Assembly: GCF_009834915.1 (NCBI RefSeq)
Contig: NZ_WVHS01000003.1
Span: 248,001 to 312,000 of the forward strand
DNA from: Hufsiella ginkgonis
GTDB lineage: Bacteria; Bacteroidota; Bacteroidia; Sphingobacteriales; Sphingobacteriaceae
Direction of reading: 5' to 3'
DNA: 64,000 nt
The notes under the pieces were generated by a model that made no database searches, was not told the DNA's origin, and saw only the letters and a program-made list of their open reading frames with translations. Below are positions 29,271 to 61,683 of the stretch, in pieces. How positions within the stretch are numbered: the first letter of the stretch is position 1; every line of letters starts with the position of its first letter. Position numbers and translations under genes: made by a program.

Positions 29271-29667
29271 CTGCTGCAAGTGTGGGCAGGGGACAATACC
29301 CCGATGGTGCAATATACAGGTCGTGTATTTCCGGAGTATTAGCGGGAAGTAAAGGAATTATGAGGGTATACGATTATGCTAAAACGGTAAAGCCTATAGA
29401 TTGTATATACATATCGAAAAGTGATTTGTAACATAAATGATACAAGTGGGTTTCACCATTTTCACCATGTAAGAGCGCATTCTTTTTATTTATTTTAGGC
29501 CGCGAAAGCAACGGAATGATAAATTCTGCTTATTTTGCTAAAACGAATTAACCAACACACAATAAACAATTACACTTGCAGCTGCCTGGTATCGCCGGGC
29601 CCATGAATTCGGGTTTTATTTGCTAAAACTATATACAGAACAATTAACCACCTAACAAACTGTGCGT
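29271..29667. promoter_or_regulatory. 397-bp divergent intergenic region before SusCD pair 1
   Basis: It contains a palindrome TTGTA-N10-TACAA (29426-29445) whose right half TGATACAAGTGG resembles the operator words before the other SusC-type promoters. A box TATTTTAG (29491-29498, one mismatch to TAnnTTTG) lies 53 bp after it. The remaining 170 bp would be a long AT-rich leader. I found no leader ORF like those of pairs 2 and 3. Confidence 0.4.
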
Positions 29668-32600
29668 ATGAAAATTAATTTATTTAAGATTTCAGGATTA
29701 GCAGTACTCTGTGCGATCCAGTCCCAGGCCTATGCTACGGGCCTTGGGGTGCTGGGGAGTGAATCCGGAACGAACCATTTTAAAATGGCGTTGAAAAGAA
29801 AGCCAATTACCGGTACTGTCCGGGATGAAGCGGGGGCTGCGTTACCCGGGGTGAACGTAAAGGTAAAGGGAACGACCAAAGTGGCCGTTACCGATGCTTC
29901 CGGTAAGTTCACCATCGATGCGAACGAGGGCGACGTGCTCGAGTTCAGTTTTATCGGGTATACACTTAAAACAGCGGCAGTACGGGGCGATGCGGCCATC
30001 AGCCTGTCTATGGAGCCTGCTGCCAGCGAGCTTAACGAGATCAAGGTAGTAGCGGTAGGTTACGGTAACCTCGCGCAAAGAGAAGTTACTTCTGCCGTAG
30101 CAGTGGTAGACAGTGCGCAATTCCGGCAAAGCGGCTCGAGAAACCCGCTTGACCTTTTGATCGGTAAGGTTGCCGGTCTGCAGATCTCCCGTACGGGCGG
30201 TACCAACCCGAACTCGGGCGTCAGCGTTCAGCTGCGTGGCGTAACCTCGCTGTCTGGTACGACTACCCCGCTGTTTATCGTTGACGGTATCCCCGGCGGT
30301 AACCTGGACCTTCTTCAGCAGGACGATATCGAATCGTTCTCCGTGCTGAAAGATGGTTCTGGCGCGGCGATCTACGGAACGCGTGCGAATGCGGGCGTGA
30401 TCATCATCACCACCAAAAAAGGTAAAAGTGGTGACCCCCGTTTCGATTATAACTCGTATGTGAGGACCGAGAAGCTCTATCAGCGGCCGGATTTCATGAC
30501 TGCCGAAGAATTCGTAGATAAGATCAAAAACTTCGGGTATGCAACTCCCGGAGCTGATTTTGGCGGTCGTTTTGACCACTACAAAGATTTCATCGGCGGC
30601 GGCAACGTAAGCCATAACCACAACTTCGCGGTTTCCGGCGGGGCTAGTAAAACCAGCTTCAGGGCGTCGTTAAACTACCGCGATCTCCAGGGTTACCTGC
30701 GCGAAAACGATCGTAAAGAATATGGCCTGCGCTTAAGCCTTACTACCCGCGGCTTCCAGGACCGTCTTTCCGGGCAGTTCAATATCGGTTCCAACTACAA
30801 CAGGGCTAACCTGCTCGGCGGTTCGGGCGGTATCGAGAACGTACTGACTAAGAACCCGACGGAATCGCATTACAATCCCGACGGATCTTTCTTCGTGCCG
30901 GTGATCTCCAGCCCGACCAACGAGCTTGCCCGCCTGAAACAGGAAACCAACAATCGTAACCAGCTGACCAACTCTGCGGATGCGAAGTTCGACCTGAAGC
31001 TCATCGAGGGCATGACGCTGTCGGCATTTGGTGCAGTAGTTCGTAACGCTTACGTGAACAGCGAATACCGCTTGCGTGCCAGCCAGAACTCCGTACAGAA
31101 CACAACCGTTCCAAACGGCGGTTATGCTGCGCGTGGCACAGTGCTCGATCAGAACTTTAACTTCGAGCCTACGCTGAACTATACGAAAGCCGTAGGTGCT
31201 AATCACAGGTTGACCGGTCTGGCTGGTTATTCGTTCCGCTACGAGGTTTCGGAAAACTTTAGCGCCAACAACCGTGGTTATATTAATGACCTGTTCCGCG
31301 ACAACAACATGGGCAGTGTTCCGATCACTACCAACAACACAGGTATCTCCAGCGGTAAATCGGATAATACGCTGGTTGCTTACTTTGGCCGTGTGAATTA
31401 CGCGTGGAACGATAAAGTGTTCCTAACCGCTTCAGTTCGTCGCGAGGGATCTTCACGTTTCGGTGCCAATAATAAATACGCCACCTTCCCTGCGGCATCG
31501 GCTGCCTGGAATATTTCCGACGAAAGCTTTATGAGCAACGTTAAATTCGTCAACAACCTGAAACTTCGCGTAGGTTATGGTGAAACGGGTAACTCGGGCT
31601 TTGAGAACTATGCTTCACTGGTATTGCTAGGAACAGGTAATATTTACCGGTACCCCGACGGATCGTTCAACCAGACTTATGGTCCGACCCGTAACCCGAA
31701 CCCGAACCTGAAATGGGAGCGTAAACAGGAAACCAACATTGGTGCCGACTTTTCTCTCTTTAACAGCAGGCTGAGCGGCTCCCTGGATGTATACAAACGC
31801 TTAACGAAGGATCTGCTCGATACTTATACGTCTCCGCAGCCGCCGTTCATCGTGTCTTCTATTTATACCAACGTAGGAACGATCTCCGCAAAAGGTGTCG
31901 AGCTTGCGCTGAACTTTAAAGCGGTGAATAAAGGCAGTTTCAGGTATGATATCGATTTCACCGGGAACACCACGAAAAACGTCCTTGACTCGTATTCGAA
32001 CGACGAGTACAAACGTGATATGAGGACCTTCGGCGGTATCGGTGGTTTCGGTGCTCTTGGCGATGCGATCCGTACCTACGAAGGCCGGAGAATAGGTGAA
32101 TTCTGGGGCAAGAAATTTGCAGGATTCGACGCCGCAGGCAAATGGCTGTTCTACAACCGTGCCGGGGAAAAGGTTCCGAATGCCTCAATAAACAACTCGG
32201 TATTTCGTGATCAAACCGATCTCCAGGTTATCGGGAACGCCATTCCGAAGTACTACCTGTCAATGGGGCATAACTTCACTTATAAAGGATTCGACCTGCG
32301 TGCATTCTTCCGCAGCCAGCTGGATTACCAGATCCTTAATACCCTTGCCATCTCGTACGGCAACAGGAATGGTGTTTCATCAAATCTCCTCAGAAGTGCA
32401 TTCACCAAGTATCTCGAAATTAAGGATACGTACATGTACTCCGATTATTACGTGGAAGAAGGCAGCTTCCTGAAACTGGACGAAGCAACCCTGGGATATA
32501 CCTTTAAGCTGAAAACTAAGTATGTGCGTAACCTGCGTACTTATGTTACAGGTCAGAACTTATTCCTGATCACCGGGTATACCGGTAACGATCCTGACAT

Positions 32601-42976: not shown

Positions 42977-43102
42977 ATGGAACTTCGATCAACCAAGATA
43001 CAGGCGCTCTCCCGCCGTTTTCTGCTCCCTCCCGGGTTAACTGCCAATGCCGCAGCCATAGGTGATCTTGATAAAATTCGGAACAAATTAGATACGATTT
43101 GA
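42977..43102 (+). CDS. Possible small protein or leader (41 aa)
   Basis: ORF starting MELRSTKIQALSRRFLLPPG and ending KIRNKLDTI. It is basic with no signal peptide or membrane segment. It has a good -7 box upstream, and its stop codon lies inside the TTTGATACA operator-like word (43098-43106). No homologue comes to mind; it may be non-coding leader sequence. Confidence 0.3.
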   Translation: MELRSTKIQALSRRFLLPPGLTANAAAIGDLDKIRNKLDTI

Positions 43103-43140
43103 TACACTGAATGATTGACGATCAGATTGCCATTAAATTG
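43098..43140 (+). promoter_or_regulatory. Operator-like word and possible promoter of SusCD operon 2
   Basis: TTTGATACA (43098-43106) resembles TTTGACACA of the operon 3 promoter. TAAATTG (43134-43140, followed by TT) sits 29 nt before the leader ORF start, where the third operon has TACTATTG. The left palindrome half is missing here. Confidence 0.3.
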
Positions 43141-43168
43141 TTACAACTAACCAAACCAATCTAACTGG

Positions 43169-43264
43169 ATGAAAGAAAAAACCACCTTTTTCTTTCGTGG
43201 AATTCTACGGCCCAAAAATATCCGGAGGGCCGGTTTTAAACTCTTTAACCTAATAACATCATGA
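43169..43264 (+). CDS. Leader ORF of SusCD operon 2 (31 aa, overlaps susC by ATGA)
   Basis: Starts MKEKTTFFFRGILRPKNIRR and ends NLITS; its TGA shares bases with the susC ATG at 43261. A similar ORF (MKEKSHFFFAGMLLPKRFQG) precedes the third susC at the same place. Shared pattern: MKEKxxFFFxGxLxPK. The first codons also form a hairpin (ATGAAAGAAAAA with TTTTTCTTTCGT, loop ACCACC) that would hide its own start codon. It may be a translation-coupling leader or an RNA element. Confidence 0.5.
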   Translation: MKEKTTFFFRGILRPKNIRRAGFKLFNLITS

Positions 43265-46200
43265 GAAAAAATCTACTGAAATGGCAAGACCATGGTTCGT
43301 ATCACCCGGACATGGCAGCTCGCAAACTGTCCCAAAGAATGGCGCGCGTAATAGCATGCGTACTGTTTCTCGTATTCATTTCTGCGAGCGTATTTGCACA
43401 AACCAACGTAAGCGGGATAGTGACCGATGAGAAAAACCAGCCTCTTCCCGGCGTTACGGTTACATTAAAAAGCACGCCGCCCCGCAGCACCAGTACGGAT
43501 GCGTCAGGTAAATATACCATGACCGCGGTGGGCGACAAAGACGTCCTGGTATTTTCCTTCGTGGGATATACGCCGCGGGAGATATCGCCAGGTAAACAAG
43601 CCACACTTAATGTTGCCCTCGAGCCTGATGCAAAGGCGTTAAGCGAAGTGGTGGTAGTAGGTTACGGCGTACAGAAGAAAGCCAACCTGACAGGTGCGGT
43701 TGACCAGGTAACGGCTGCATCGCTGCAAAACCGGCCCATTCCCAACCTTAGCCAGGGACTGCAGGGTGTAATGCCCAACCTGAACATCAAAATGATGGAC
43801 GGCAGGCCCACCCAGGCGCCCGCTTACAATATCAGGGGAACTACTTCGATCGGCCAGGGCGGAAGCGCATTGGTGCTGATCGATGGCTTTGAAGGCGATC
43901 CCAGTCTGCTGAACCCTAATGACATCGAAAGCGTTTCCATGCTGAAGGACGCCGCGTCGGCTGCGATCTACGGGGCAAGGGGGGCGTTTGGCGTGGTACT
44001 TATCAGCACCAAGAAAGCAAAAAAAGGCGCAACCAGCATCGACTACTCTACCAACCTATCGCTGAAACAACCCATGCAGGTGCCTGATTTCGTAACCGAT
44101 GGTTATCTCTGGTCGAAGATGTTCGCTGAAGCTTTCGTGAATGGCGACGGCGCGTTTCCGCAGAATGTGAATAAAACACAGAAATTCTCCCAGGCGTATC
44201 TCGACGAGTTCAGGAAAAGAGCAGAGTCGGGGCAGCCGTACAACGAGATCGACGTAAACCCGGCCACCGGCGAATACACTTATTACGGAAGCACCGACTG
44301 GTACGGTCATCTCTACAAAAAGAGCAATGGCGCGGCAGAGAACAACCTCTCTGTCAGCGGAAGCAATGAAAAAACGTCGTTCCTGGTATCCGGTCGCTTT
44401 CTTACCCAGGACGGGCTGTTCCGGTATAATTCTGACGATTACGATATGCAGAATATCCGTGCAAGAGGCTCCATCAATGTGTTTAAGTGGCTAAGCATCG
44501 AAAACAACGCGGATTATTCGGTGATGAACTACCATACCCCTCTCAACGTGGGTGAAGGCGGCGGGATCTGGAGAAACATCGCCGATGAAGGCCACCCTAC
44601 CGTACCGCTGCTGAACCCGGACGGGTCGCTCACCTTTAGCTCGGTATATACTGTAGGCGATTATTACTACGGCAAGAACGGCATCGATAGCAAAAAGAAG
44701 GTGTTCAGGAACATCACCGGGCTGAGGTCTAATTTCTTTGGCAACAAGTTCCGGGTAAATGCCGATTTTACGTTCCGTAACACCAACAATGACGCGGAGC
44801 AAAAACGCGTTCAGGTGCCTTACAGCACCAACAAAGGTGTAACTGCTTTCGTGGGTACCACTACCAACGACCTATTATTCGATCAGCGGGAAACACAATA
44901 CCTGGCCACCAATATTTACGGAGAATACGAAAATACCTTCGCTTCTGACCATTACGTAAAATTAATGGCCGGTTATAACTACGAAGAGTCTACTTATAAC
45001 CGCATTGCCACCCAGCGGAACGGGATCATCTTTGAAGATGCTACCGACCTGAACCTGGTGCTCGGACAGGCCATCACCACCGGCGGAGGCTATGAGAAAT
45101 GGGCTATTTTGGGCGGCTTCTCCCGGCTGAACTATTCTTTTAAAGACCGCTACCTGCTGGAGGTGAACGCACGCTACGACGGCTCTTCTAAATTCCCGGC
45201 AGACCAGCGTTACGGTTTCTTCCCGTCGGTTTCTGCCGGTTGGAGGATTAACCAGGAGCCTTTCTGGAAAGTGTCGCCGGAATTGGTTTCCGACCTGAAA
45301 CTAAGGGCCTCTTACGGATCACTGGGTAACGGGAACATCAACTCGTACGTTTACCAGGAGATCTTTAACATCAGCCAGTCTGGCGTGATCCTGGGTGGTG
45401 TTCGTCCGCAAACCACCGGTCAGCCCGCGGTACTTCCTAACGGGATCACCTGGGAAACTTCTACCACTACCAACTTTGGCCTCGACCTGTCGATGCTGAA
45501 CAGCCGCCTCACCTTTACGGGAGATGCGTACGTGCGCAATACCACCGACATGTTTACCGTGGGCTTATCTGCCCCTGCCGTGTTCGGCGCTTCGGTGCCA
45601 AAAGGAAACTATGCCGACTTGCGCACTAGGGGCTGGGAGCTTTCACTTTCGTGGAGAGACAGGATCGGCAAATCGGGCAAACCATTCAACTACAACGTTA
45701 GGGCGACCCTGGCCGACAACAAATCGAAGATCACCCGTTACAACAACCCGGATAAGCTGCTGAGCGACTATTATGTCGGGCAAACGATCGGTGAGATATG
45801 GGGTTATGAAACGGAAGGTTTCTTTATCGACCAGAAAGATATCGATAGCCATGCCAAACAAAGCCCGCAGATGAGGGCATCGCCGACCAACATCTGGTTC
45901 CCTGGCGATATCAAGCTGAAGGACCTGAACAACGACGGGTTTATCAACACAGGTACCAACACGGTAAGCAACCCCGGCGACCGCCGCATCATCGGCAGCT
46001 CCGCTCCGCGGTACATGTACGGCGTTAACCTGGGCGCCGACTGGAACAGCTTCTTTTTCTCGACCTTCTTTCAGGGGGTGGCCAAACAACAGTGGTACCC
46101 AAGTACCGAAACGGAAATGTTCTGGGGACAGTATAACAGACCTTATAACAATATCCCAACCTTCCACGTCGGGAATATGTGGACGCCTGACAATACCGAT

Positions 46201-46554
46201 GCCTACTTTCCAAGGACCATGTCGCGTGCCGCTTCCAGCAATACCAACAGGGAGCTGGGCGTGGCACAAACCAAGTACCTGCAAAACGTGGCCTATTTGC
46301 GCCTGAAGAACGTCCAGGTAGGTTATACGCTGCCTAACCGCCTGATCTCGAAGATCAGAGCACGTTCTGCGAAAGTTTTCTTTTCAGGAGAGAACCTGTA
46401 CACTTACTCACCGTTGTATAAGATCGTAAAAACCATCGACGTGGAGAATGCGGTACCAGCCGACCAGGTATTTAACGCGAACAGCACCAACGGCGACGGT
46501 TACAACTACCCGCTGCTTAAAAGCTTCTCGCTGGGTATAAACATCGGGTTCTAA
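43261..46554 (+). CDS. SusC/RagA-family TonB-dependent outer-membrane transporter 2
   Basis: 1097 residues. An unusually long N-region (MRKNLLKWQDHGSYHPDMAA, then RKLSQRMARV) precedes the hydrophobic core and cleavage at SVFAQ (about 46). A carboxypeptidase-D-like domain (about 48-130, GIVTDEKNQPLPGV) leads to the plug with VVVGYGVQKKANLTGAV, LQGVMPNLNI, LIDGFEGD, SMLKDAASAAIYGARGAFG and VLISTKKAKKG, and a barrel ending LLKSFSLGINIGF. It is the pore of SusCD system 2. Its first 13 residues closely match those of SusC 3. Start is coupled to a leader ORF. No STN domain. Confidence 0.95.
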   Translation: MRKNLLKWQDHGSYHPDMAARKLSQRMARVIACVLFLVFISASVFAQTNVSGIVTDEKNQPLPGVTVTLKSTPPRSTSTDASGKYTMTAVGDKDVLVFSFVGYTPREISPGKQATLNVALEPDAKALSEVVVVGYGVQKKANLTGAVDQVTAASLQNRPIPNLSQGLQGVMPNLNIKMMDGRPTQAPAYNIRGTTSIGQGGSALVLIDGFEGDPSLLNPNDIESVSMLKDAASAAIYGARGAFGVVLISTKKAKKGATSIDYSTNLSLKQPMQVPDFVTDGYLWSKMFAEAFVNGDGAFPQNVNKTQKFSQAYLDEFRKRAESGQPYNEIDVNPATGEYTYYGSTDWYGHLYKKSNGAAENNLSVSGSNEKTSFLVSGRFLTQDGLFRYNSDDYDMQNIRARGSINVFKWLSIENNADYSVMNYHTPLNVGEGGGIWRNIADEGHPTVPLLNPDGSLTFSSVYTVGDYYYGKNGIDSKKKVFRNITGLRSNFFGNKFRVNADFTFRNTNNDAEQKRVQVPYSTNKGVTAFVGTTTNDLLFDQRETQYLATNIYGEYENTFASDHYVKLMAGYNYEESTYNRIATQRNGIIFEDATDLNLVLGQAITTGGGYEKWAILGGFSRLNYSFKDRYLLEVNARYDGSSKFPADQRYGFFPSVSAGWRINQEPFWKVSPELVSDLKLRASYGSLGNGNINSYVYQEIFNISQSGVILGGVRPQTTGQPAVLPNGITWETSTTTNFGLDLSMLNSRLTFTGDAYVRNTTDMFTVGLSAPAVFGASVPKGNYADLRTRGWELSLSWRDRIGKSGKPFNYNVRATLADNKSKITRYNNPDKLLSDYYVGQTIGEIWGYETEGFFIDQKDIDSHAKQSPQMRASPTNIWFPGDIKLKDLNNDGFINTGTNTVSNPGDRRIIGSSAPRYMYGVNLGADWNSFFFSTFFQGVAKQQWYPSTETEMFWGQYNRPYNNIPTFHVGNMWTPDNTDAYFPRTMSRAASSNTNRELGVAQTKYLQNVAYLRLKNVQVGYTLPNRLISKIRARSAKVFFSGENLYTYSPLYKIVKTIDVENAVPADQVFNANSTNGDGYNYPLLKSFSLGINIGF

Positions 46555-52542: not shown

Positions 52543-52650
52543 CTTTCTAATGTTGTCAATATTTCTGAAAATATGGGCAGATTGTGATACATTTTGACAC
52601 AAATTGGATAAGATAAAGGATATTTTGCGCTGGAAATACCGCTACTATTG
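52543..52650 (+). promoter_or_regulatory. Promoter module of SusCD operon 3 (shared with the ThuA gene)
   Basis: CTTTCTAATGTTGTCA (52543-52558), then palindrome TTGTG-N11-CACAA (52582-52602), then box TACTATTG (52643-52650, one mismatch to TAnnTTTG). The same three elements, with identical spacing, occur at 61859-61966. Confidence 0.65.
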
Positions 52651-52679
52651 TTCTGCTAATCCAAATTAAACTAAGTCAA

Positions 52680-52763
52680 ATGAAAGAAAAAAGCCACTTT
52701 TTCTTCGCGGGAATGCTATTGCCCAAACGTTTCCAGGGACAATTTCAAAACATTTTAAACTAA
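52680..52763 (+). CDS. Leader ORF of SusCD operon 3 (27 aa)
   Basis: Starts MKEKSHFFFAGMLLPKRFQG and ends FQNILN; the stop is 7 nt before susC. It aligns with the leader before susC 2 (MKEKxxFFFxGxLxPK). The hairpin formed by its first codons (GAAAGAAAAA against TTTTTCTTC) is shorter than in the other copy, with about 8 bp. The start is about 30 nt after the predicted promoter box. Confidence 0.5.
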   Translation: MKEKSHFFFAGMLLPKRFQGQFQNILN

Positions 52764-52770
52764 CCAAATT

Positions 52771-55700
52771 ATGAGAAAAAATTTACTGCAATGGCAGGGC
52801 CATGGTTCGCGCCATTCGAACCACATGTCTAACACACTGCTTCAAAAACAACCGTTTACGATGCTGTGTATCATGTTTCTCGTGTTACTTACTACCGCTG
52901 TATTTGCCCAAACAAATGTGAAAGGGGTAGTAACGGACGAGAAAGGGGAAGCATTAATTGGGGTGAGTGTAAAGATTAAGGGTGCTACCGGCGGCGTGAG
53001 CACCAACGTGAATGGCGAATTCGCCATCAGCGTACCGGAGAACGGTGTGCTGACTTTTTCGTACGTGGGCTTTACCACGCAGGAAGTTACCATATCCGGC
53101 AGGACAACGGTCAACGTGAAGTTAGCGGCGGTTACCTCCAACCTGGAAGAGGTGGTGGTAACCGGGTATGGTTCGCGTAAAAAAGAAACGATTACCGGTG
53201 CGGTAGCGAGCGTTACCGCCAAGGATATCGACCGTGCGCATGGCGGCGGTACCGCCAGTACCATGCTCGCGGGCAAGCTGCCCGGAGTCACTTTTCGCCA
53301 ATCTGAAGGTCGTCCCGGATCAAGCGCCAGTATCCAGATCCGCAATATGGGCACACCACTTTTTATCATCGACGGTGTGCAGTCTGACCAGGGCCAGTTT
53401 AATAACATTTCACCTTCAGATATCGACCAGATCTCCGTACTGAAAGACGGCGCGGCGGCTATCTACGGCGTGCGTGCAGCCAACGGGGTGGTGTTGGTTA
53501 CCACCAAAAAAGGCTCGGGCGCAACCCGTATCAATATCGATGGCTACCAGGGTTACCAGAACTTCTTCAGGTTCCCGGGTGCGTTAAGGAACGCTTATGA
53601 CTGGCAACGCTATAAAGCGGAGGCAGAAGTGAACCTGAACGGCACCACCCCTATGACCCAGGCCGAACTGGACAAATGGAAGGCGGGCACTGACCCGAAT
53701 TACCGCAGTTTCGACTGGCAGGAATTTATAGTAGATGATCATAAAAATGCGCCGCAGAACCAGGTCAACCTGAGTTTCACCGGGGGAGAAGACAAAGTAA
53801 ACTACTATGTAGCTGCGAGTAATTTTCACCAGGGATTTAACCTCGGGAACGAATTCCGCTTTGACCGTGCTAACCTGCAGTCGAACATTAATGCCAAAGT
53901 GAGTAACCGTTTCTCCATCGGTATCGCATTGAACGGCCGTGTGGAAAAAAGAGGTAACCCGGGCGTACCGGGTGGTGACGACTATGACCTGCCACGCCGT
54001 GCAGTTCTGCGTAACACGCCGCTCGAACGCCCTTATGCGAATGACAACCCGGCCTACCTGAACAAGATCGGGAACACCCAGACCAACTACGCCTTCCTGA
54101 ATGAAAAGATCTCGGGCGTGTATCGTGATCAATGGCGCGTGCTACAGACCACCCTGAACGCCGAGTATCAAATTCCCGGCCTTAAAGGGTTATCTGTCAA
54201 AGGATTGTATTCGTATTATGTTGCGGATAACCTTTATAATAACTTCGAATACACCTATAAGGCCTATACTTACAACGCGGTAACCAATAATTACGACGTT
54301 ACGGGCGGCAGCTCCAATCCGTTCCGCGAGCGCACACAGCAAAAAGTATACAATACCACCCTGCAAGGCCAGCTAAACTACAACAACACCTTTGGCAAAC
54401 ATACGATAGGTGCTACATTCGTAACCGAACGCCTTACTGTACAGAACCTTCGTAACCGTATTCACTCGATCCCGGTATCAAACAACCTGCCGCTGATCTA
54501 CTTTTCAAATTCCGATTTATACGAAGACAGCGATGTTGAACAGGCCCGTTTAGGTTATGTAGGGCGTGTAAACTATAGCTTCGGAAATAAGTATTACTTT
54601 GAAGCAGCCGGGCGCCGCGACGCATCTTACCTGTTCGAGCCAGGCAGCCGCGTGGGTTATTTCCCTACCTTCTCCGCAGGCTGGAGGATCACCCAGGAAA
54701 ATTTCATGAAAAAACTGACTGAAAACTCAACCATCCTGAGCGATTTAAAAATACGCGGTTCTTACGGGATACTAGGCGACGACAGCGGCGTATCGGCTTA
54801 CCTCTACCTTCCGGGATATAACTATGGGCCCGGACAGGGGATTTCGATCCTCGAGGGGCAGACGATCACTACCGCCCGGGATAAAGGAAAAACTGATAAC
54901 CGGATCACCTGGTCGAAAAGTAAGATCACCGACGTAGGTTTCGACCTCAGTCTCTTTAACAGCAGTCTCGCCATTTCCGGGGATTATTTTTACCGGAAAC
55001 GTACCGGCCTCCTGGCGGCCAAAAACGAGGTGATCCTGCCGGCCGAGGTAGGTTATTCGCTGCCTAACGCGAACATCAACCAGGATGCGCAATACGGTAC
55101 GGAAGGCTCTATCAACTTTAATAGTAAGGCCGGTAAAGTTACTTACAACATCGGGCTCAACGCTTCCTATACGCGCTCTAAGTTCATCCAGTCATACAAC
55201 CCGTTGTTTTTCAACTCATGGGACCGCTATCGTAACTCGAGCGAGGGACGTTACTCCCGCATCGACTGGGGTTACGAGGTACTGGGGCAATTCCAGTCGC
55301 AGGAACAGATCAACAACTACCCGGTAAATATAGACGGGCGTTCGAACAGGAGCCTTCTCCCGGGCGACCTGATCTACAAAGACCAGAACAGCGATGGAAA
55401 GATCGATGGATATGATCAGCGCCCGATCGGCTACGGTAACAGCCAGCCAAATATTAACATGGGCTTTACGCTCGGAGCGGCCTACAAAAATTTCGATTTC
55501 AACGCCGACTTTTCCGGTGGCGCAGGATACACCTGGTTCCAGAACGCGCAGGTACGCTGGGCGTTTGCCGATGGCGGCAACCTGAACACGATCTTCGAAG
55601 ACCGCTGGCACCGCGAAAACCTGTTCGATGTGAACAGTCCCTGGGTTGCCGGCAAATATCCCCCGCTCCGGTTTAACCAAAGCACGCTGAGCAGCTACAA

Positions 55701-55953
55701 CAGCAACTCGACCATGTGGGTTCATAACGCGAAGTTCTTTCGCGCGAGGTCTATAGAGCTGGGCTATTCGATGTCGCCTAGCCTGCTTTCGAAAGTGAAA
55801 GTGCGGAAAGCGCGCATTTTCGCAAACGTGTATAACCTGTTCTCGATCGATAACCTGGCGGAATATAGCGTAGACCCGGAAACATCGAATGATAACGGGT
55901 TGCAGGCGCCGCAAACGCGTGTATTGAACTTCGGCCTCAACCTATCGTTTTAA
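52771..55953 (+). CDS. SusC/RagA-family TonB-dependent outer-membrane transporter 3
   Basis: 1060 residues. It has the same long N-region as SusC 2 (MRKNLLQWQGHGSRHSNHM), with signal cleavage at AVFAQ (about 47). Carboxypeptidase-D-like domain (VTDEKGEALIGVSVKIKG), plug motifs VVVTGYGSRKKETITGAVAS, MLAGKLPGVTF, IIDGVQSDQ, SVLKDGAAAIYGVRAANGV and VLVTTKKGSG, and a barrel ending RVLNFGLNLSF. Pore of SusCD system 3, encoded with SusD and a DUF3823 lipoprotein. It lacks an STN domain, so regulation is expected at the shared promoter rather than by an anti-sigma relay. Confidence 0.95.
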   Translation: MRKNLLQWQGHGSRHSNHMSNTLLQKQPFTMLCIMFLVLLTTAVFAQTNVKGVVTDEKGEALIGVSVKIKGATGGVSTNVNGEFAISVPENGVLTFSYVGFTTQEVTISGRTTVNVKLAAVTSNLEEVVVTGYGSRKKETITGAVASVTAKDIDRAHGGGTASTMLAGKLPGVTFRQSEGRPGSSASIQIRNMGTPLFIIDGVQSDQGQFNNISPSDIDQISVLKDGAAAIYGVRAANGVVLVTTKKGSGATRINIDGYQGYQNFFRFPGALRNAYDWQRYKAEAEVNLNGTTPMTQAELDKWKAGTDPNYRSFDWQEFIVDDHKNAPQNQVNLSFTGGEDKVNYYVAASNFHQGFNLGNEFRFDRANLQSNINAKVSNRFSIGIALNGRVEKRGNPGVPGGDDYDLPRRAVLRNTPLERPYANDNPAYLNKIGNTQTNYAFLNEKISGVYRDQWRVLQTTLNAEYQIPGLKGLSVKGLYSYYVADNLYNNFEYTYKAYTYNAVTNNYDVTGGSSNPFRERTQQKVYNTTLQGQLNYNNTFGKHTIGATFVTERLTVQNLRNRIHSIPVSNNLPLIYFSNSDLYEDSDVEQARLGYVGRVNYSFGNKYYFEAAGRRDASYLFEPGSRVGYFPTFSAGWRITQENFMKKLTENSTILSDLKIRGSYGILGDDSGVSAYLYLPGYNYGPGQGISILEGQTITTARDKGKTDNRITWSKSKITDVGFDLSLFNSSLAISGDYFYRKRTGLLAAKNEVILPAEVGYSLPNANINQDAQYGTEGSINFNSKAGKVTYNIGLNASYTRSKFIQSYNPLFFNSWDRYRNSSEGRYSRIDWGYEVLGQFQSQEQINNYPVNIDGRSNRSLLPGDLIYKDQNSDGKIDGYDQRPIGYGNSQPNINMGFTLGAAYKNFDFNADFSGGAGYTWFQNAQVRWAFADGGNLNTIFEDRWHRENLFDVNSPWVAGKYPPLRFNQSTLSSYNSNSTMWVHNAKFFRARSIELGYSMSPSLLSKVKVRKARIFANVYNLFSIDNLAEYSVDPETSNDNGLQAPQTRVLNFGLNLSF

Positions 55954-60798: not shown

Positions 60799-61683
60799 TC
60801 AATACGGTTCCAACTGTGCCTTCATGTATTCGTTCTTGTAATGCAGGGGCTGTTTTCCCATCACTTTTTTAAATTGTTTGTGAAAGTTCGATGGCGACTG
60901 GAAGCCGCATTCGCAGCCGATAAGGTTAATGTTCATCTTATCTTCTTTAAGCAGCTTGCAGGCGTACTCCACGCGGATCTCCTTCAAAAAGTCGGAATAT
61001 GATTTGTTTACCCGCGATTTAAAATACCGGCAAAAAGAAGTACGCGTCATGTTCGCCACCGCGGCCACGTCTTCGAGCACGATCTTTTGCCGGAAATTTT
61101 TCATGATATAGCCGTAAACCTTGTTCATACGGTCGGTTTCGGCCTCTGTGTTAAGCGAATCGGAGTGGTTGTGCGTAACGGCATGGCAATCGTTAGAATT
61201 GGCAAGCACGTCGAGAAGCTTTAGCAACTGCACGATGCTGTCGACCCCGCTCATGGTAAGCAGTTCTTTCATCATCTTGCTAATGATAGCGTGCGTTTCG
61301 CCCGTGATCTCCAGGCCGCGCTCAGATTTATGGAACAGGCGGGTGATGGTTTCCAGCTCTTCCTTCTGGTGGGTAAGCTCGCCGAGAAAGTCGTGGTGAA
61401 AATACATCACGATCACCGTGGTGCTGAGGTTGTTCTTTTTTTCGAAATAAGCGTGATCGTTCCGCCAGACATGCGGCAGGTTAGGCCCCGTAAGCACCAT
61501 ATCGCCCGGGCCGAACGACTTCACACTGTCACCGATAAAACGCGTCCCTTCGCCTTTGGTAACATAGGATAGCTGGTACTCGGGGTGCAGGTGGAAGGTG
61601 GGATCGAAATGCGGTTCGTTCAGCTCCCTTATCACAAACGTCTTGGAGTCGGGGATGACGGATTTCTGGATGATATTTTTCAT
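60799..61683 (-). CDS. AraC-family transcriptional regulator
   Basis: 294 residues. An N-terminal cupin (about 20-130) carries HFDPTFHLHPEYQLSYV and FGPGDMVLTGPNLPHVW. A C-terminal double HTH (about 195-290) shows VLEDVAAVANMTRTSFCRYF and FKKVMGKQPLHY, with IRVEYACKLLKE. It probably senses a sugar and activates genes nearby. It lies divergent from the ThuA lipoprotein gene and convergent with the CehA-like gene, so the shared promoter modules at 52543 and 61859 are the obvious candidate targets (inference). Confidence 0.9.
   Translation of the reverse strand: MKNIIQKSVIPDSKTFVIRELNEPHFDPTFHLHPEYQLSYVTKGEGTRFIGDSVKSFGPGDMVLTGPNLPHVWRNDHAYFEKKNNLSTTVIVMYFHHDFLGELTHQKEELETITRLFHKSERGLEITGETHAIISKMMKELLTMSGVDSIVQLLKLLDVLANSNDCHAVTHNHSDSLNTEAETDRMNKVYGYIMKNFRQKIVLEDVAAVANMTRTSFCRYFKSRVNKSYSDFLKEIRVEYACKLLKEDKMNINLIGCECGFQSPSNFHKQFKKVMGKQPLHYKNEYMKAQLEPY

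Follow-up and report, generated by a model that had tools for sequence, protein, structure and literature searches.

PULs are commonly thought of as moving in complete units, and PUL regulators of the HTCS and AraC types have direct-repeat operators. Shine-Dalgarno pairing is not used in Bacteroidota. In attenuation of the trp and phe type, the leader peptide is encoded by a short ORF in which codons are repeated, and a hairpin comes after it. In Bacteroides thetaiotaomicron, long 5'UTRs with candidate sORFs have been described, mostly without ribosome-profiling support, and the commonest 5'UTR length is 23 nt (PMC7366714). In the same organism FopS and RbpB control susC translation starts (PMC11697453), while PMC7366714 cites DonS-type antisense RNAs of susC. 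The consensus of the -7 promoter element is TANNTTTG (PMC6847099).

The window considered here is a stretch of 64,000 nt from Hufsiella ginkgonis (NZ_WVHS01000003.1, positions 248,001 to 312,000), in which the genes SusC2 and SusC3 are each preceded by a short leader ORF; the two leader copies lie 9.5 kb apart (Table 1). Both proteins score well over the TIGR04056 cut-off, yet they are 34% identical to each other and their SusD partners 30%. Between the two susCD pairs lie a putative endonuclease/phosphatase-family gene and an alpha-L-fucosidase; a GH35 beta-galactosidase is located upstream, and a DUF3823 gene follows SusD3. SusC3, SusD3 and the DUF3823 gene are kept together in six relatives. 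An AraC-type gene at 60799-61683 was considered as a conserved regulator and rejected, as it does not adjoin the SusC3 orthologs. SusC1, a further SusC gene of the window, is given a GTG start at 29662 in the ORF list, and the start context of the ATG at 29668-29670 is just as good.

Table 1. Positions in the window of the two leaders, their predicted control elements and the genes that they precede
Feature	Copy	Position	Strand	Remarks
Operator-like direct repeats GATAA...GATAC	SusC2	43070..43095	+	21 bp apart
Operator-like direct repeats GATAC...GATAA	SusC3	52586..52611	+	21 bp apart
-7 element TAAATTG (predicted)	SusC2	43134..43140	+	imperfect TAnnTTTG; placed by distance from repeats
-7 element TACTATTG (predicted)	SusC3	52643..52650	+	imperfect form; placed by distance from repeats
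Structured 5'UTR (predicted)	SusC2	43145..43260	+	116 nt; 74% identical to SusC3 copy; alifold against column shuffles, z -4.6
5'UTR (predicted)	SusC3	52655..52770	+	116 nt; compared with SusC2 copy
Leader ORF	SusC2	43169..43264	+	31 codons, MKEKTTFFFRGILRPKNIRRAGFKLFNLITS then stop; TGA overlaps SusC2 ATG (43261)
Leader ORF	SusC3	52680..52763	+	27 codons, MKEKSHFFFAGMLLPKRFQGQFQNILN then stop; stop 7 nt 5' of SusC3 (52771), gap 52764-52770
Hairpin H1	SusC2	43171..43196	+	arms 43171-43180/43187-43196; perfect 10 bp, about -8.9 kcal/mol, from G of leader ATG
Hairpin H1	SusC3	52684..52705	+	arms 52684-52691/52698-52705; 8 bp, about -4.3 kcal/mol
Hairpin H2	SusC2	43208..43232	+	CGGCCC/GGGCCG, about -12 kcal/mol
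Hairpin H2	SusC3	52719..52742	+	UUGCCC/GGGACAA, about -4.7 kcal/mol
SusC2		43261..46554	+	TIGR04056 817.7 bits; codons 1-14 inside shared block
SusC3		52771..55953	+	TIGR04056 764.5 bits

An earlier note on this DNA had described the two ORFs as a conserved leader, controlling SusC translation by coupling or attenuation. Both ORFs, and a hairpin at the leader start of each copy, are present as it claimed. On balance we lean towards the reading that each is part of a structured susC 5'UTR, belonging to a SusC3-type cassette that has passed between neighbouring susC genes, and not a peptide gene. What is retained of the earlier description is a cis-acting susC leader, with a UTR that is 74% identical between the copies, hairpins that are kept and changes that compensate; a conserved peptide or a peptide-sensing attenuator is not. 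The leaders resemble the sORF-containing UTRs of B. thetaiotaomicron in their length of more than 100 nt and in having a short ORF before the main gene, proposed there to encode leader peptides; those UTRs come from transcript maps, whereas the present ones come from the comparison of a pair, are conserved at the RNA and not the peptide level, and stand before susC (PMC7366714). The leader is thus grouped with the structured 5'UTR leaders of susC, as a variant.

The likeness of the two upstream regions stands out among 43 SusC upstream regions of the genome. Their alignment score is 67, compared to 51 for the next SusC pair (a 45-nt match), while the remaining pairs score close to the reversed controls, whose maximum is 30. 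Over the 121 aligned nucleotides 5' of the susC starts, identity is 74% (z 12.1), and it extends into the genes, where codons 1-14 of SusC2 and SusC3 are 83% identical in nucleotide sequence. Farther from the genes, the two operator blocks share 27 of 45 aligned positions (z 5.0), while the promoter spacer, at 50% identity (z -0.1), and DNA lying further upstream (z -0.5) are at the random level. A pattern in which operator and UTR are alike and the spacer between them is random is a mosaic not expected from recent conversion, nor from a relic in decay. That the leaders are such a relic, a duplicated susC 5' end with an accidental ORF and no function, is decidedly unlikely: there are only two copies, 9.5 kb apart, and retention of the ORF is not significant, as would be expected of a relic, but decay should have been uniform, and changes in the stem have been compensated.

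These compensated changes lie in H2, where two pairs are altered on both sides between the copies; with only two copies to align, the covariation amounts to those two pairs in one comparison. The eight pairs of H1 that are common to both copies are all identical, and so show no covariation. For the stretch that begins at the leader ATG and ends shortly before susC, the consensus fold (alifold) has a z of -4.6, and all of 500 column shuffles are less stable; H2 alone has a z of -2.6, a value reached by 2.8% of column shuffles. Folded singly, neither UTR is more stable than its shuffles (z -1.4 and +0.3), so that the support for structure comes from the two-sequence comparison. No Rfam family matched either leader at the curated threshold or at E <= 1. 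The sequence comparison nevertheless leaves an RNA structure better supported than a peptide.

No coding signature is found in the leader peptides. Within the first 19 codons the copies differ at 14 nucleotides, distributed 5/6/3 over codon positions 1/2/3, and eight of the nine differing codons change the amino acid. The earlier note had pointed to silent differences; there is one silent codon, and the note overstated the case. The comparison of peptide-level with RNA-level change that it proposed gives two compensatory stem pairs and no synonymous bias. When 14 changes are placed at random, a similar amino-acid identity results (p 0.34) and the leader frame stays open in about two thirds of the versions, so neither the sequence of the leader nor its openness indicates selection. 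Moreover, a 1-nt indel on the 3' side of the H2 stem places the C-terminal halves of the two peptides in different frames, while the nucleotide likeness continues to the susC start. On these comparisons, the leader is more probably a structured 5'UTR than a conserved peptide gene.

The presence of Phe-Phe-Phe in both peptides, with a hairpin after it, might suggest a pheA-type attenuator that senses a peptide or stalls on codons. The leaders share repeated codons and a hairpin with the trp and phe attenuators, but they have no intrinsic terminator, the sole terminator-like match in 43000-43400 being at 43344-43361, inside susC; the genes serve sugar uptake and not phenylalanine synthesis, so that a fitting pathway is also lacking; and the leader shows no coding conservation and was not found before the orthologous genes of related genomes. 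The phenylalanines are explained by RNA pairing, since their U-rich codons form the 3' arm of H1. We consider an attenuator very improbable.

The distribution of the leader is equally narrow. It precedes only two of the 44 SusC genes of the genome, and the strict DNA pattern finds these two loci and no third. A covariance model built from the two copies found no third copy among the SusC loci of the genome and nothing convincing in nearly 800 others, made up of 400 further genomes of the family and 394 of the class, two samples which overlap slightly, nor in the genus, represented by this species alone; its best matches (E 0.002-0.008) are unlike the leader in appearance. The leader can therefore be called conserved between these two loci, with no further copy anywhere searched. 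The earlier note had expected the peptide pattern before other susC genes, and this expectation failed, which weakens the claim for a peptide: as a DNA pattern, MKEKxxFFFxGxxL has no match in 84,980 GTDB species. The relaxed MKEKxxFFF gives at least 117 scattered chance matches and, among the matches listed, none lies before susC. Allowing two mismatches, scattered matches in 120 relatives are slightly more numerous than in the backwards control, and none precedes susC. One of these, L026, is the N-terminus of a SusC-like protein itself. In related genomes (L018, L022 and L027), ATGAAAGAAAAAATxxCCTTTCTTTTC recurs within a longer conserved, coding-like stretch, which is not a leader and has no Rfam match.

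From the -7 elements, transcription is predicted to start at about 43145 for SusC2 and about 52655 for SusC3. The SusC3 -7 box lies at a distance from the second repeat that is within 1-2 nt of that of the -7-like box of its orthologs, for example L295. Counting from the predicted starts, the leader AUG is 24-25 nt and the susC AUG 116 nt away in both genes. Translation of the leader ORF is possible, because an AUG 24-25 nt from the transcription start would be in the normal place, and the sequence is consistent with a leader ORF that may be translated.

A leader of this kind could be translated from its AUG, open H1 and H2, and lead to re-initiation at the susC AUG, with the sequence of the peptide irrelevant. 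We regard this as possible but doubtful. As is expected of a translationally coupled uORF, the leader stop overlaps or adjoins the downstream start at both loci, lying less than 10 nt from it. The leader ATGs have a SusC-like start context, at the 98.8th (SusC2 copy) and 94.2nd (SusC3 copy) percentile among all ATGs of the window, and their distance from the predicted transcription start is near the 23 nt of B. thetaiotaomicron (PMC7366714). This context and distance count against our preferred reading in so far as they would also suit a translated leader being the real object. However, a coupled uORF is also expected to have a sequestered downstream start, and structure prediction indicates the reverse: the mean unpaired probability is 0.61 and 0.76 at the SusC starts and 0.38 and 0.57 at the leader starts, so that the SusC start is predicted to be accessible without the leader ORF and coupling would be unneeded. 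In addition, some two thirds of versions with as many random changes would keep the frame open, and the orthologs manage without a leader ORF. In this genome it is common for a stop to lie close to the susC start: upstream frames ending at the start ATGA also occur in its SusC genes L033, L064 and L066, and an ATGA stop is unremarkable since many of its SusC genes begin ATGA. Of the coupling proposed in the earlier note there thus remain the position of the stop and the start context; coupling is possible, while a need for it is not supported by the predicted open SusC starts.

A frame of a similar kind is seen at L031 of the same genome (C19:433693-436830, minus strand), where about 33 codons (MNVIMRVTLPACFV...) overlap the annotated SusC start. 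The true start of that gene may be a later ATG (MRKHLSF); the ATGA there would share bases with the stop codon of the frame.

The orthologs of the two genes point to the origin of the shared region. The two half-sites about 21 bp apart 5' of susC are like HTCS/AraC-type operators, although the nearby AraC-type gene does not fit as the regulator. In the genome itself the repeat pair occurs in two of 43 SusC genes, SusC2 and SusC3 only. GATAC-type repeats with the 21-bp spacing are present in 28 of 33 SusC3 orthologs, many of which are close relatives, and in none of 15 SusC2 orthologs. SusC3 orthologs are 55-64% identical to SusC3, several matching from residue 1-2 (MRKxLL...), while SusC2 orthologs are 74-79% identical to SusC2, match only from residue ~25-49, and have unrelated starts and unrelated upstream DNA. 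SusC2's own group was therefore rejected as the source of its N-terminus, its orthologs lacking that start. As the SusC3 orthologs have the repeats, and the SusC2 orthologs have neither the repeats nor this N-terminus, SusC2 appears to be the recipient, which gives a copying direction from SusC3 to SusC2.

The SusC3 orthologs also differ from SusC3 in their leaders. None has the MKEK leader ORF, and their UTR is shorter; their repeats lie mostly ~125 and 104 nt 5' of susC, and the repeat pair of the window's SusC2 and SusC3 sits ~60 nt further upstream. SusC2 thus probably received a SusC3-type promoter, 5'UTR and N-terminus that had already been enlarged by ~60 nt with the ORF. In 15 of the 33 orthologs a significantly stable hairpin (z <= -1.5) directly precedes the ribosome region, over half having none that is significant, and the stem sequences differ strongly from group to group. 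A U-rich CTTTTTCTTT of the SusC3 orthologs was considered as a homolog of the 3' arm of H1 and set aside; since its distance from the repeats is that of the -7 element, the likeness is taken as unproved.

On the preferred reading of a structured 5'UTR, both susC mRNAs would open with a leader of ~116 nt, comprising an unpaired start-like stretch, an AUG with its short ORF, H1 and H2, and then, before the susC start, a ribosome region that is A/C-rich and unpaired. This leader would be part of a SusC3-type cassette that runs from the 21-bp-spaced repeats and the promoter through the 5' hairpin and ribosome region to the first codons. Within this lineage ~60 nt holding the ORF and H1 would have been added to the UTR, after which the cassette would have passed between neighbouring susC genes, placing both under one control. 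The hairpins may tune the stability or translation of the susC mRNA, with the ORF as a passenger or ribosome carrier. Were the ORF translated, ribosomes would pass H1 and H2 and stop at or just before the susC AUG, and could feed re-initiation; with no peptide-level conservation, the movement of the ribosome would matter and the peptide would not. More tentatively, and with the weight of probability against it, a portable cassette reaching from the operator repeats and promoter, over the uORF and its two hairpins, to the ribosome site and the first 14 codons could have been copied from one PUL to a neighbour PUL. The two susC genes would now be controlled alike, both at transcription and after it, and translation of the leader would act via RNA structure and not through the peptide.

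The shared block also spans the susC start region and the 13 codons after it, with long identical runs. This extent would suit a site at which an sRNA or an RNA-binding protein binds in trans to control both susC mRNAs, and control of susC starts of this sort has been described for FopS and RbpB (PMC11697453). The likeness lies in post-transcriptional control at the 5' end of a susC mRNA; that precedent, however, is a trans-acting sRNA in a distant genus, Bacteroides, and no sRNA was identified here and no Rfam match at the curated threshold, so that such a site is unlikely. The DonS-type RNAs, as cited in PMC7366714, likewise act on the 5' end of susC as non-coding regulators, but they are antisense, and the opposite strand offers only a weak promoter-like match in the scan of 43000-43400.

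Less usual is that only the 5' control end seems to have passed between susC genes of different orthologous groups. Movement of a 5' end that leaves in place the transporter body of another orthologous group would be a direct route by which a new nutrient system comes under an old switch. The two genes also offer a clean natural comparison in which the effect of leader structure on susC output in Bacteroidota could be told apart from that of leader translation.

Other upstream arrangements were seen among the SusC genes compared. Upstream of several SusC2 orthologs (L258-L268) there is a hairpin-like CTAAAACGGTTTAG together with a clear TAGCTTTG -7 element, unlike the SusC2 of the window. L039 of the same genome and L224 and L233 of two related genomes, with starts MNKKIT/MKKKIT..., have in common a different leader with a hairpin of the AAAAGC/GCTTTT type, which suggests that SusC groups have 5'UTR hairpins of their own. 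The region upstream of L049 has its own direct repeats, AAAGTGTAATGTTGACAGTT and AAAGTGTTATATTGACAGTT, apparently another type of operator. A second SusC pair of the genome, L054 and L067, is alike over the last 45 nt before the start, ending TTAGCGT-ATG, and the upstream regions of L071 and L072 likewise end TTAGCGT.
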